IMG/VR virus record: IMGVR_UViG_3300043446_000593
Location: 1 to 26,086 of that record
DNA from: a virus
Length of the DNA stretch: 26,086 nt
Strand: one strand, 5' to 3'
Shown: one piece after another, positions 2,727 to 25,983 of the stretch
Layout of the letters: the number at the start of each line of letters is the position of its first letter
Position numbering within the stretch: position 1 is the stretch's first letter
Notes under the pieces: generated by a model
What the model was told of the DNA's origin: nothing
Seen by the model: the letters and a program-made list of their open reading frames with translations, nothing else
Database searches by the model: none
Made by a program: the position numbers and the translations under genes

Positions 2727-3122
2727 TTACTCCATATATCTAAGCATAACTGCACGGTTAAGTTCATCGCCACGCAGGTTTCCAATGTCTTGCGAGCGTC
2801 TAATTGCTTGATTTACCGCAAAATTTGTATCAGGAAACGATTGGTATTGATTTGGGTTCATTTGTACATTTTTACGAATAGCCATGTTTCCGCTAAATGT
2901 ATTAGGGTCATATATCTGACCACCATAAATTGTTGGAACATTGTAATAAGCATTAGCGTTAGGCAAGCCCAGTTCTTTTCCTTGGGCGGTCATGCTTAAT
3001 TCGGTATGTGGTTCATAGCCTTGTGGGTCAAATACGATTGGGCGGTTTAGGTCAATAGGATAGCCTGCCGAATCTTTAGCTTGTGTTATACGCAAGATTT
3101 GAGCAAGGCGTTGTAAATCCAT
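2727..3122 (-). CDS. Conserved phage hypothetical protein (PTIYGG type)
   Basis: The 131-residue soluble protein has no membrane segment. It is rich in Asn, Gln and Tyr, with the phrase YNVPTIYGGQIYDPN at about 60-74, a pattern I recall from small phage proteins of unknown role encoded near terminase or structural genes. The final residues include a helical stretch (RGDELNRAVMLRYME). Its start overlaps the stop of the upstream 60-residue gene by one base, so the two are likely translated together. No catalytic motif is visible. It may be a minor virion component, but that is inference from composition and location. Confidence 0.7.
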   Translation of the reverse strand: MDLQRLAQILRITQAKDSAGYPIDLNRPIVFDPQGYEPHTELSMTAQGKELGLPNANAYYNVPTIYGGQIYDPNTFSGNMAIRKNVQMNPNQYQSFPDTNFAVNQAIRRSQDIGNLRGDELNRAVMLRYME

Positions 3123-3304
3123 TACATATCTTTCATAGCGTCAGAGATTACTTGTCTGCGGGGTTTTTTAGCAGTTTTAGCAGCATCTTTAAAGTCTTGT
3201 GCGCTTGGGCGGCCTTCTTCGCCAGCTTTCTTCATACGCTCGCCTGAACCTTTTTTAATTCGTTCACGCTTGGCGTGGATATTGGCGTAAAGACCCTGTT
3301 TCAT
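3122..3304 (-). CDS. Small conserved phage protein (KQGLYANIHAKRERI type)
   Basis: The 60-residue, strongly basic protein has the N-terminal phrase LYANIHAKRERIKKGSGERM followed by a short proline-containing linker and a basic tail. Near-identical N-terminal phrases occur in small proteins of many environmental phages and are annotated only as hypothetical. The start codon overlaps the stop of the neighbouring 61-residue gene by 4 bp (ATGA), which indicates translational coupling. Function is unknown. Confidence 0.75.
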   Translation of the reverse strand: MKQGLYANIHAKRERIKKGSGERMKKAGEEGRPSAQDFKDAAKTAKKPRRQVISDAMKDM

Positions 3305-6384: not shown

Positions 6385-6710
6385 TTGGTTAGTCTTTCTA
6401 TTTGTCTGTCGTTAGCTTGTTGGGTGCGCCATGCTTCAAACCGCATCTTGGCGGCTTCTAATTGCCACCGTAAGGCTTCTTTTTGTTCAACCGCTACACC
6501 GATGGCTTTGCATAAATCTTGATAATCTTGGCTACGGTAGGCTTCTCGTTCCTGTGCGCCTAACGATTGTTCCTCGGTTTGCGACATTTTGATGGCTTTT
6601 AAGCTATGCCGAAAGTTCTCAAGCTGGGCTAGTTCACCTGACGCTTTAGCATATTGCGGTGCGGTTTTAAATATAAAATCAATAGCTTCGTGCGGGTCAT
6701 ACTCTTTCAT
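6381..6710 (-). CDS. Helical phage protein of unknown function (EREAYRSQDY type)
   Basis: The 109-residue, highly charged helical protein has KAIKMSQTEEQSLGAQERE at 38-56 and a C-terminal EALRWQLEAAKMRFEAWRTQ. This layout is a widespread phage early protein (AxxERE-Y-S-xY, then LRW-L-AAxxRxExWR) found beside recombination genes. No activity is established. Its start overlaps the end of the cytosine methyltransferase gene by 14 bp, and its stop is coupled to the next gene by ATGA. Confidence 0.75.
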   Translation of the reverse strand: MKEYDPHEAIDFIFKTAPQYAKASGELAQLENFRHSLKAIKMSQTEEQSLGAQEREAYRSQDYQDLCKAIGVAVEQKEALRWQLEAAKMRFEAWRTQQANDRQIERLTK

Positions 6711-7506
6711 TTAATCGCTCCATTAATAATTGCCATGCAACAGCAGCCACTTGCGGTACTTGTCCGTTTCCAATAGCTTTAAGCCTGTCCACTCTTGCGG
6801 CCACCCCATCAGCCATTCGTAAAGGTTCGGGTTGATTGAAGATGGTATGTAAGTTCCATTTGCTTTGGCTGTTCTTGTCGCTCCCGAACCCCCAGCGTTG
6901 CCCCCGCCCGATGGTGTTGTCGGTGTTGGCCATATTACCCCTCGTTTCTGCATCGCTTTTCTGCTGTTGCTGCCCCCCGAACTGCCCGTTGTAGGTGTGT
7001 GAAAAAACTTTTTGTTGTCGGGCAACAATCCAAATTCTCTTTCGGTGATGTTTAGCTCCAATGTCTGACGCTCCCAACACTCCCCATTCCGCATCGAACC
7101 CCATGTTGGCCAAGTCTGCGAGAACTCGGTCAATTCCTCGATGAACGAGCATTGGTGAGTTTTCCACAAAGACAAATTTGGGTCGTACTTCGCAAATGAC
7201 CCTTGCCATTTCTTTCCACATTCCTGACCGTTCTCCGTCAATTCCTGCTCCTTTTCCTGCGGCAGAGATGTCTTGGCATGGAAACCCGCCCGATACAACA
7301 TCAACAATTCCTCGCCAAGGCTTTCCGTCAAAGGTTTGAACATCATCCCAAATCGGGAAAGGCGGGAGTATTTCGTCATTTTGTCGGGCAAGCAATACGC
7401 TTGCTGGGTATGCTTCCCATTCGACTGCACAGACGGTTCTCCATCCGAGCAGTTTTCCTCCAAGTATTCCCCCACCAGCGCCTGCGAAAAGAGCCAACTC
7501 ATTCAA
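6697..7506 (-). CDS. C5-cytosine DNA methyltransferase
   Basis: This enzyme methylates carbon 5 of cytosine, probably to protect phage DNA. From TTG at 7506 (269 residues) the order is: AdoMet motif ELALFAGAGGG at 3-13, catalytic GGFPCQDIS with Cys77, VFVENSP at about 112-118, HHRKRIWIV at about 153-161, and the late motif IGNGQVPQVA. The target-recognition part is short. The TTG is chosen because GGGGGA lies 5 nt upstream and the frame then starts MNELALF, the usual opening. An earlier TTG (7554) lies inside the preceding gene. The gene overlaps that gene by 8 bp (TTGAATGA) and is overprinted by the frame at 6723-7502. Confidence 0.9.
   Translation of the reverse strand: MNELALFAGAGGGILGGKLLGWRTVCAVEWEAYPASVLLARQNDEILPPFPIWDDVQTFDGKPWRGIVDVVSGGFPCQDISAAGKGAGIDGERSGMWKEMARVICEVRPKFVFVENSPMLVHRGIDRVLADLANMGFDAEWGVLGASDIGAKHHRKRIWIVARQQKVFSHTYNGQFGGQQQQKSDAETRGNMANTDNTIGRGQRWGFGSDKNSQSKWNLHTIFNQPEPLRMADGVAARVDRLKAIGNGQVPQVAAVAWQLLMERLNERV
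6723..7502 (-). CDS. Overprinted +1-frame protein inside the cytosine methyltransferase gene
   Basis: A 259-codon frame, shifted +1 relative to the methyltransferase, stays open across nearly its whole length. Its ATG at 7502 overlaps the upstream gene's stop as ATGA, with GGGGGA 9 nt upstream, so its initiation site looks as good as that of the methyltransferase. The product is rich in Trp, Thr and Glu, with LSLWKTHQCSFIEELTEF, WPTWGSMRNGECWE and LYEWLMGWPQEWTGLK. I recall proteins with the W-K-T-x-QC ... TWPxWGxMRxGxCWE and EWLMGWPxxWT pattern as hypothetical proteins in many phages. Their conservation could be real dual coding or a by-product of the constrained methyltransferase sequence. 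Function is unknown. Confidence 0.5.
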   Translation of the reverse strand: MSWLFSQALVGEYLEENCSDGEPSVQSNGKHTQQAYCLPDKMTKYSRLSRFGMMFKPLTESLGEELLMLYRAGFHAKTSLPQEKEQELTENGQECGKKWQGSFAKYDPNLSLWKTHQCSFIEELTEFSQTWPTWGSMRNGECWERQTLELNITEREFGLLPDNKKFFHTPTTGSSGGSNSRKAMQKRGVIWPTPTTPSGGGNAGGSGATRTAKANGTYIPSSINPNLYEWLMGWPQEWTGLKLLETDKYRKWLLLHGNY

Positions 7507-7684
7507 TCCATTCCCCCTTATTACCTTTGTTACCTTTTTTCCATTGGTCAGCAAAATCTGTTAGTAATTCACTATCAAATTCGTAGTTTGATAGATATTC
7601 TCTAAACTTTGCTAACCCCCATTCTGACCGCCATTTACACAACTGCCTAACACCGCAACGATATTTATGTTCCTGCTCATTCAA
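7499..7684 (-). CDS. Small conserved phage protein (DUF7696-like)
   Basis: The 61-residue protein begins at TTG 7684 with AGGA 8 nt upstream. Features are EHKYRCGVRQLCKWR near the start and DQWKKGNKGNKGEW at the end. This resembles the short phage family DUF7696 (EH-x-x-x-CE-x-RW ... QW-KGN) from memory, with moderate certainty. It sits between the replication-like gene and the methyltransferase and shares an 8-bp TTGAATGA junction on both sides. Function is unknown. Confidence 0.6.
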   Translation of the reverse strand: MNEQEHKYRCGVRQLCKWRSEWGLAKFREYLSNYEFDSELLTDFADQWKKGNKGNKGEWIE

Positions 7685-17350: not shown

Positions 17351-17380
17351 TTGTTTTCCTTTACCTTTTAATGCTATAAT
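17351..17380 (+). promoter_or_regulatory. Own promoter of the HNH nuclease gene
   Basis: TTGTTT (17351-17356) and a perfect TATAAT (17375-17380) are 18 bp apart, and TGC directly before the -10 makes it an extended -10 promoter. AAGGAG follows 7 bp before the ATG. It reads against the surrounding late operon. Confidence 0.7.
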
Positions 17381-17399
17381 CCCCATAAAGGAGATTGTT

Positions 17400-17978
17400 A
17401 TGCCGTTTAAAAATCCACACCCTCTTTACCAAGTTTGGCAAGGCATGAAGGCAAGATGCTATAACCTTAACAATAAACATTACCCAAATTACGGTGGCAG
17501 AGGTATTAAAGTTTGCGACCAATGGATAAACAATTTTAATCAATTTGTTTCCGATATGGGCGATAGACCGCAAGGTTATTCCATAGACCGAATTGATAAT
17601 AATGGCGATTACGCTCCACAAAATTGCAAATGGTCTAGTCGTAAAGAACAACAACGAAATCGCAGAATTACTAAAAAAATAACGATTGATAATGTTCAAT
17701 ACCTTGTTTGCGATATTGCTCAAAAATATGGTTTTAAATACGACACTATTGTTAATAGAGCCAAAACTGCAAAAACTTTTGATGAACTTGTAGATAAAAA
17801 ACGCAAAGTTTTTAAAAGCGGTCTTACGCTTGGCGGTCAAGCAAGCGGGGCTAAAAAACGAGCCATGACCCATTGCAAAAATGGGCATGAATTTACGGCA
17901 GAAAACACCCATATTTACAAAGGATGGAGAAGGTGCAGAGCTTGTCATAGAATTAGACAATACAATCGAACTCATTAA
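17400..17978 (+). CDS. HNH homing-type endonuclease, antisense in the late operon
   Basis: The 192-residue protein has an HNH-like core: YQVWQGMKARCYN at 10-22, YGGRGIKVCDQW at 31-42, GYSIDRIDNNGDYAPQNCKW at 59-78. A DNA-binding helical segment with CDIAQKYGFKYDTIVNRA follows (about 104-121). The C-terminus has paired Cys/His residues: Cys159, His163, Cys179, Cys182. Free-standing enzymes of this type spread by cutting uninterrupted DNA. It is on the strand opposite to all neighbouring late genes, with its own promoter and ribosome site. Confidence 0.88.
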   Translation: MPFKNPHPLYQVWQGMKARCYNLNNKHYPNYGGRGIKVCDQWINNFNQFVSDMGDRPQGYSIDRIDNNGDYAPQNCKWSSRKEQQRNRRITKKITIDNVQYLVCDIAQKYGFKYDTIVNRAKTAKTFDELVDKKRKVFKSGLTLGGQASGAKKRAMTHCKNGHEFTAENTHIYKGWRRCRACHRIRQYNRTH

Positions 17979-25344: not shown

Positions 25345-25983
25345 TTACGCTTCCTCTGTAACTTTGGGTTTTCTGCCTTTAGGCTTACTAACTGCCGCAA
25401 GTACAGCCGCCATTTGCTCTTGCATTTGTGCCAGCTTCGCATCAGTTTCAGCCTTAATTCTAGCATTTTCCTCTGCTTTTTGGGCAAGTTCTTGTTTTAA
25501 AGCGTTAATTTCTTCTGCCCGCTTAGTCGCTTCTGCGGTTTCTTCGGCAAGATTTAAGAAAGTCCGTGCCTTATCCCTAAACGCATGGGGTGACATACCC
25601 GCAATCATGCCAATTCGTTGTAACTGTAGGTCAGAAGCGTTAGCAATCGACTCTACGGTCATAAACTTAATGCCTTTGAGTTCTTGGGCTTGGGATTGGC
25701 TAATTAAAGGCCATTGTTCTACGGGCGTTCCTAAAATCTCGCTACTTGAATCTTGGGTAGCTTGATATTGAAGCCATTGACGAGGAAAACGCTGTTTATG
25801 GCTTTCCTGTGCGTAGGTATCAATTTCCGTTAGATTATCCCCAGCGACCATAATCCGTACAAAGTCATAATCTTTGTAGATGGGTCTGCCTGCTTCGTTG
25901 GATTCATGCTCTAGTTTGACTGCTCGCTTATAAAACTTAACTGCCAAACGAGAATCTGCGTCTTGGGTATCGCTATCAATCAT
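25345..25983 (-). CDS. Conserved coiled-coil protein between late promoter region and neck genes
   Basis: The 212-residue protein has a helical N-terminal domain (YDFVRIMVAGDNLTEIDTY, KQRFPRQWLQYQ), then HAFRDKARTFLNLAEETAEA and a strong coiled coil (AEEINALKQELAQKAEENAR), ending in a basic tail with SKPKGRKPKVTEEA. Proteins with this layout follow capsid genes in several podovirus-like phages; the role is unknown. A clear AAGGAG ribosome site. The terminator upstream separates it from the preceding late gene. Confidence 0.7.
   Translation of the reverse strand: MIDSDTQDADSRLAVKFYKRAVKLEHESNEAGRPIYKDYDFVRIMVAGDNLTEIDTYAQESHKQRFPRQWLQYQATQDSSSEILGTPVEQWPLISQSQAQELKGIKFMTVESIANASDLQLQRIGMIAGMSPHAFRDKARTFLNLAEETAEATKRAEEINALKQELAQKAEENARIKAETDAKLAQMQEQMAAVLAAVSKPKGRKPKVTEEA

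Follow-up and report, generated by a model that had tools for sequence, protein, structure and literature searches.

An overprinted +1-frame gene in phage C5-cytosine methyltransferase genes, and its proposed role as the small-domain subunit

The window analysed here is the whole of a 26-kb virus contig (26,086 nt), on the minus strand of which lies a methyltransferase gene, here called M, that ends at a stop codon at 6697 and probably starts at a TTG (MNELALFAGAGGG...; Table 1). M encodes an intact C5-cytosine methyltransferase, matching PF00145 in Pfam (E=1.9e-32) and phrog_363 in PHROG (E=5.7e-68), with HhaI as its top PDB match (E=2.6e-16), and the motifs FAGAGGG, GGFPCQ, VENSP, HHRKRIW and AIGNGQVP can be read in it directly. 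The criteria for a C5-cytosine DNA methyltransferase, namely a Pfam DNA_methylase match together with motifs I, IV (PC), VI (ENV/ENS), VIII and X, are all satisfied. The canonical monomeric layout, with motif IX and a target-recognition domain (TRD) placed between motifs VIII and X of one polypeptide, is not. In C5-methyltransferases the large domain comprises motifs I–VIII and X, and the small domain consists of the variable region and motif IX (PMC3404938). The VIII–X region of M is short, of low complexity, gap-rich in the alignment and modelled with a pLDDT of only 30–40, and in the short members of the family the spacing from motif VIII to motif X is about 36–80 aa, which leaves almost no space for a TRD.

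A second open reading frame, P, occupies the +1 frame of M over nearly its full length, beginning with an ATG 4 nt after the M start and running for 259 codons and a stop. P has no Pfam match, and a PDB search with it returned nothing significant (best E=0.11); in PHROG it matches phrog_1008, labelled 'DNA methyltransferase', and its C-terminal end matches phrog_26627 and phrog_35493. AlphaFold gave no informative model of P (pLDDT 44.5, pTM 0.16), so the small-domain role proposed below has no fold backing. The sequence has short conserved core motifs (WKTxQC, WPxWGxMxNGxC and EWLMGWPxGWTDLKPLE) and a variable, WPTP-rich middle, features that fit a recognition module without proving one. The first ~60 residues of P (MSWLFSQALVEEYL...) are specific to the core family. 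The TGA stop of an upstream 61-aa ORF overlaps the P ATG, and translational coupling of P to this ORF through the stop/start overlap is possible.

A preliminary description of the locus, made without database searches, had reported a 259-codon frame in the +1 frame of an intact methyltransferase, an ATGA formed with the upstream stop, and a GGGGGA lying 9 nt from the ATG; all of this held, as judged from the ORF coordinates and the PF00145 match, with the addition that GGGGGA also lies 5 nt from the TTG. Its further statement that such proteins are common unannotated phage proteins held in part: the WKTxQC and WPxWGxMxxG phrases belong to the overlapping P family, some of which is labelled 'DNA methyltransferase' through phrog_1008.

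Table 1. Features of the M/P locus in the window
Feature	Coordinates	Strand	Remarks
Upstream 61-aa ORF	7499..7684	-	TGA stop overlaps P ATG (ATGA, 7502-7499)
GGGGGA, Shine-Dalgarno-like	7512..7517	-	5 nt from M TTG, 9 nt from P ATG
Nested starts TTGAATG (TTGAATGAG, 7506-7498)	7500..7506	-	TTG for M 7506-7504, ATG for P 7502-7500
M, C5-cytosine methyltransferase large domain (motifs I–VIII and X)	6697..7506	-	~269 aa; PF00145, phrog_363, motifs read directly
M motif X, DRLKAIGNGQVP	6754..6789	-	physically overlaps the end of the P motif-IX-like element
P, overprinted +1-frame gene, proposed small-domain (target recognition and motif IX) subunit	6723..7502	-	259 aa
P motif LWKTHQCS	7146..7169	-	overlies M motif VI region
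P motif TWPTWGSMRNGECWE	7071..7115	-	matches PSRGxMxxxxIY of in-frame fused enzymes
P motif-IX-like element SINPNLYEWLMGWPQEWTGLK	6774..6839	-	+1 frame in 112 scanned loci

The first question raised by such a frame is whether the methyltransferase itself could keep it open. The preliminary description had put the chance at about 4 in a million under equal random codons, which is the wrong null: when the synonymous codons of M alone are shuffled, the +1 frame carries a mean of 6.8 stops and is fully open in 2 of 20,000 shuffles, or ~1e-4. Far more weight is carried by the relatives. Among 80 IMG/VR loci picked by M only, blind to P, every one has a +1 ORF of 228–316 codons, with only 25–87 codons in the +2 frame. 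Across 71 deduplicated relatives the +1 frame contains 13 stops in all, where codon shuffles predict 413 and the codon usage of flanking genes 702; the real +2 frame has 1245. With additional methyltransferase-selected loci drawn from Bacteroides-, Microcystis- and Mycobacterium-phage queries, the P core lies under one stop-free +1 ORF in 153 of 154 deduplicated complete relatives selected by their methyltransferase, and in 206 of 208 deduplicated intact enzymes once other sources are included. The two exceptions are a locus of borderline coverage (L339) and an enzyme with a fused P domain (L379). In this pooled set, M identity to the window falls to about 27%, and 87 of the 206 genes have a GC content below 50%.

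Conservation of the P sequence, as distinct from mere openness, was addressed with a P profile applied to M genes outside its training set, each compared with 100 synonymous shuffles. The real +1 translation beat all shuffles nearly everywhere, failing only for one unrelated methyltransferase and for contigs that break off early. Shuffled M genes still reach up to about 245 bits on the P profile, because the conserved motifs of M cast a P-like 'shadow' in the +1 frame; weak distant P matches alone were therefore not taken as evidence, and openness and shuffles were required as well. Distant profile matches as standalone evidence were likewise rejected on the example of L379, which has 27 stops in its +1 frame and still weakly matches P.

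Selection on P was assessed by classing every nucleotide difference by its effect in both frames, in pairs 2–16% diverged. The alternate-frame dN/dS (NN/NS) for the +1 frame is 0.365 (95% CI 0.30–0.44), with control values of 1.46 for the +2 frame and 0.89 (0.75–1.04) for flanking genes. Relative to the remaining M-silent changes, those that create a P stop run at a rate of 0.24, compared with 0.75 in the flanking control. The SN/SS estimator was less useful, as SS sites are few and its control also falls below 1 (0.51). By the criterion that an overprinted gene should display purifying selection in the alternate frame beyond what the reference frame explains, as judged against the +2 and flanking-gene controls, P qualifies: it is coding DNA and not a by-product of M, a conclusion that is shown at the level of sequence and has no expression or peptide data behind it.

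These results bear on the simplest rival explanation, in which the amino-acid sequence, codon usage or DNA-level constraint of the methyltransferase keeps the +1 frame open and no second protein exists. In its favour, the conserved methyltransferase motifs do cast the P-like shadow described above. Against it stand the excess of stops expected in shuffles that preserve both protein and codon usage, the P scores above all shuffles for almost all relatives not used in training, the filtering of substitutions by their effect on P, and the ordinary +1 stop numbers of homologous methyltransferases with a fused small domain or an in-frame motif IX. This rival is refuted at the sequence level and can be regarded as all but excluded. 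The preliminary description had left the choice between a dual-coding locus and a frame kept open by selection on the methyltransferase; the former holds at the sequence level and the latter fails. Both outcomes that it had named as refuting were looked for and not met with: P is open even in distant relatives with an intact methyltransferase, and M-silent changes that alter P are suppressed in the overlap, those that create a P stop more so. The openness of the relatives lies far beyond that of shuffled codons.

Paired starts are a further property of the family. The nested form ATGAATGAG is found in most relatives, and across 119 distinct start regions the majority read NTGAATGAGTTGGCTCTTTTCGCA, with an NTG start for M and the ATG of P 4 nt later. 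The core family has the nested NTGAATGA, in which the P ATG is nearly invariant, and 82% of 130 core relatives show a Shine-Dalgarno (SD) match spanning at least 4 bases ahead of the P start. In a smaller group of start regions (ATGTCATGG) the order is reversed, P beginning 5 nt before M. In distant relatives P opens at an internal ATG about 110–160 nt inside M, with SD-like matches before this ATG in 56%, against 26% in shuffles. Initiation at the overlapping start codons AUGUG and GUGUG has been found to yield two frames in E. coli (PMC9841429).

An alternative is that P lacks initiation of its own and is made from M by programmed frameshifting or transcript slippage, as M–P hybrids. Support for this comes from G runs of 8–11 bases near the 3′ part of the gene in one subclade, and from indels in four loci (L112, L122, L139 and L142) through which M continues into the C-terminal end of P. 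However, P has its own nearly invariant ATG beside the M start in the core family, distant families possess the internal P ATG, often with an SD site, and long G runs are limited to some members of the family, making this rival very unlikely.

In the same four loci the 8–11 G run, at about 3080–3150 in each, is variable in length, and the indel puts motif X out of frame; phase variation, slippage and assembly error are all possible causes. The frame-swapped C-termini that result were at one point considered as proof of subunit exchange, an idea that was dropped, as G-run indels disturb both frames.

The methyltransferase motifs themselves are split between the two frames. In a regular-expression scan, the motif-IX-like pattern LNPxWVEWLMGFPxGWTD was found in the +1 frame of 112 loci and in the +2 frame of two shifted ones, motif X was found in the M frame of 99 loci, and the motif-IX-like pattern was absent from the M frame of all scanned relatives. 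Motif IX of HhaI reads KLHPRECARVMGYPDSY, and its likeness to the P element has been judged by eye only. Separately, an indel in two loci (L315 and L316) shifts the C-termini of both methyltransferase and P, leaving motif X in the +1 frame and the motif-IX-like element in the +2 frame.

The strongest functional evidence on P, which remains an inference from sequence alone, is a natural M–P fusion. Methyltransferases of Vibrio and Alteromonas plasmids (L373 and L376–L380) have an M portion that includes motif X and, continuing in frame, a C-terminal domain homologous to P (hhalign probability 94.6%, E=6.8e-8, 95 columns). Common to this domain and P are P-x-x-G-x-M...Y and GG-L-x-P-x-F-x-E-x-x-M-G-Y-P-x-x-x-T. 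The fused domain covers only about 95 P columns, and the first 120 residues of P fall outside the alignment. Both in these fused enzymes and in ordinary plasmid C5-methyltransferases with an in-frame motif IX, +1 stops occur in the numbers predicted by shuffles; the overlap therefore occurs where M is without a small domain, and is absent where one is supplied in frame. A scan of viral contigs found no fused M–P enzymes on them.

P without M was seen only once, on a contig fragment (L358, 1-1329, +), where a P-like C-terminal domain (E=2.1e-15 with a six-protein set) ends a 443-aa ORF that runs off the contig end. The upstream part of this ORF looks HNH-like, and the other frames have no detectable methyltransferase.

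A third rival accepts P as a real protein and makes it an accessory one, for example with an anti-restriction or regulatory function, overprinted on the methyltransferase and linked to it only through co-expression. Nothing beyond co-expression is required by dual coding or by coupled starts, and the N-terminal ~60 residues of P, confined to the core family, are missing from the fused domain. Against this, M is without motif IX and a TRD while P has a motif-IX-like element, in-frame M–P fusions occur exactly where the overlap is missing, and P is linked to M at almost every locus seen. We consider the accessory-protein explanation unlikely.

We prefer the reading in which M supplies the large domain and P the small domain of a single two-subunit C5-cytosine methyltransferase, encoded in overlapping frames with nested starts; we regard this as likely, with a probability of roughly 0.7, and it is inferred from sequence alone. 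Frame 0 would yield M, the large catalytic domain with motifs I–VIII and X and a short low-complexity link at the usual place of the TRD, and the +1 frame would yield P, carrying the small-domain functions of motif IX and, presumably, target recognition. Ribosomes bound at a single Shine-Dalgarno site would begin at one or the other of two codons spaced by 4 nt (NTGAATGAG), so that both subunits could be made from one mRNA. P would then dock on M, and the resulting enzyme, active and sequence-specific, would modify phage DNA; this methylation would probably counter host restriction. What the sequences show is dual coding, its conservation, the paired starts, the split of motifs between frames and the M–P fusion in other enzymes. 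The rest is inference only, there being no expression, peptide, interaction or biochemical data: the synthesis of both proteins, their assembly into a complex, the need for P in activity, the reading of the target by P, the recognised site, and protection of the phage from host restriction.

The closest precedent, by analogy of the motif split and without established sequence homology, is M.EcoHK31I (YGGCCR), a heterodimeric enzyme with motifs I–VIII and X in its larger polypeptide and motif IX in the smaller (PMC3404938). M likewise has motifs I–VIII and X without IX. In EcoHK31I, too, the smaller ORF reportedly overlaps the larger in a different frame (Lee, Kam and Shaw 1995), as P overlaps M. 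The systems differ in that a TRD is predicted in the EcoHK31I large subunit, whereas in M the VIII–X stretch is too short and too variable for one, and in that M/P is phage-borne, with an essentially complete overlap and core-family starts nested 4 nt apart. What would be new relative to the M.EcoHK31I kind is thus the phage setting, the nearly complete overlap, the nested starts, an apparently TRD-less M and a wide distribution. M.AquI is also a natural C5-methyltransferase of two polypeptides, the second of which carries motif IX (PMC3404938), but there that polypeptide has both IX and X in a linear split, whereas M keeps X and the frames overlap fully. The Vibrio and Alteromonas plasmid enzymes (e.g. 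WP_159373553 and WP_071971165) share the order of an M-like domain (I–VIII, X) followed by a P-homologous domain, but in a single frame and a single polypeptide, with no overlap. A further case of a gene lying out of frame within a phage DNA methylase gene is the hidden HNH ORF of the ShiLan domain in mycobacteriophage methylases (PMC11855218); that ORF is an inserted homing endonuclease confined to the insertion, whereas P has no relation to HNH and extends across the methylase proper. PHROG lists phrog_1008, phrog_363, phrog_26627 and phrog_35493 as separate 'DNA methyltransferase' or unknown families, with no overlap indicated in its output. The open-access literature searched yielded no account of an overlapping gene that extends across phage C5-methyltransferases, which is weak evidence, and a prior description cannot be excluded.

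Phages with the M/P pair have recorded hosts in Acinetobacter, Klebsiella, Salmonella, Pseudomonas, Vibrio, Mycobacterium, Bacteroides, Microcystis and Synechococcus, and they include the cultured phages Salmonella S9-5, Vibrio 1.291.O, Acinetobacter ABMM1 and Pseudomonas phPA-G. The pair is also present on plasmids of Acinetobacter and Leptospira and in the genomes or MAGs of three bacteria, Bradyrhizobium, Nitrosomonas and Gallionella. In Gallionella the copy has a disrupted frame, and in Nitrosomonas the P match contains one TAG close to its end. In the GenBank records examined, just one of the two frames is annotated and the choice varies: the P frame is annotated as a hypothetical protein in L167 (PP083311) and L183 (KX853510), leaving an intact methyltransferase frame unannotated, while in L162, L164 and L168 the methyltransferase frame is annotated and the P frame is not. 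In Mycobacterium phage Ochi17 (L165, 2375-3134) the methyltransferase is split into two annotated genes, gp73 and gp74, by a frame disruption that breaks both frames together, and tblastn suggests that this disruption is common to the related phages Llama, OfUltron and AlpineSix.

A bolder reading, towards which we lean only slightly, is of a large and ancient family of C5-methyltransferases in phages and mobile elements, with two enzyme domains overprinted in two frames, of which annotation records one, the second half being hidden in the +1 frame of nearly all related methyltransferases sampled. Many phage cytosine methyltransferases seem incomplete, being without motif IX and without a TRD. 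Should the +1 frame hold the missing half, an annotated gene that has been recoded would fail on expression or lose its specificity, and annotation omits one of two genes. The overlap, if true, would be unusual in that both products are parts of one enzyme, and the existence of in-frame, fused, non-overlapping counterparts makes the origin of an overprinted gene pair directly open to study.

Several other features of the window were recorded. ORFs of 127 and 110 aa lie antisense to the M/P region (7203-7586 and 7273-7605, both +) and are likely to be by-products of two constrained frames, their coding status being unassessed. Also of unassessed coding status are a 192-aa ORF (17400-17978, +) antisense to a 204-aa ORF (17361-17975, -) over nearly its whole length, and a 133-aa ORF (25364-25765, +) likewise antisense to 25345-25983. 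The contig carries a second methyltransferase, a 401-aa protein (1319-2524, -) with a ParB-like N-terminus and a DNA-methyltransferase C-terminus, which matches phrog_498 (E=4e-142).
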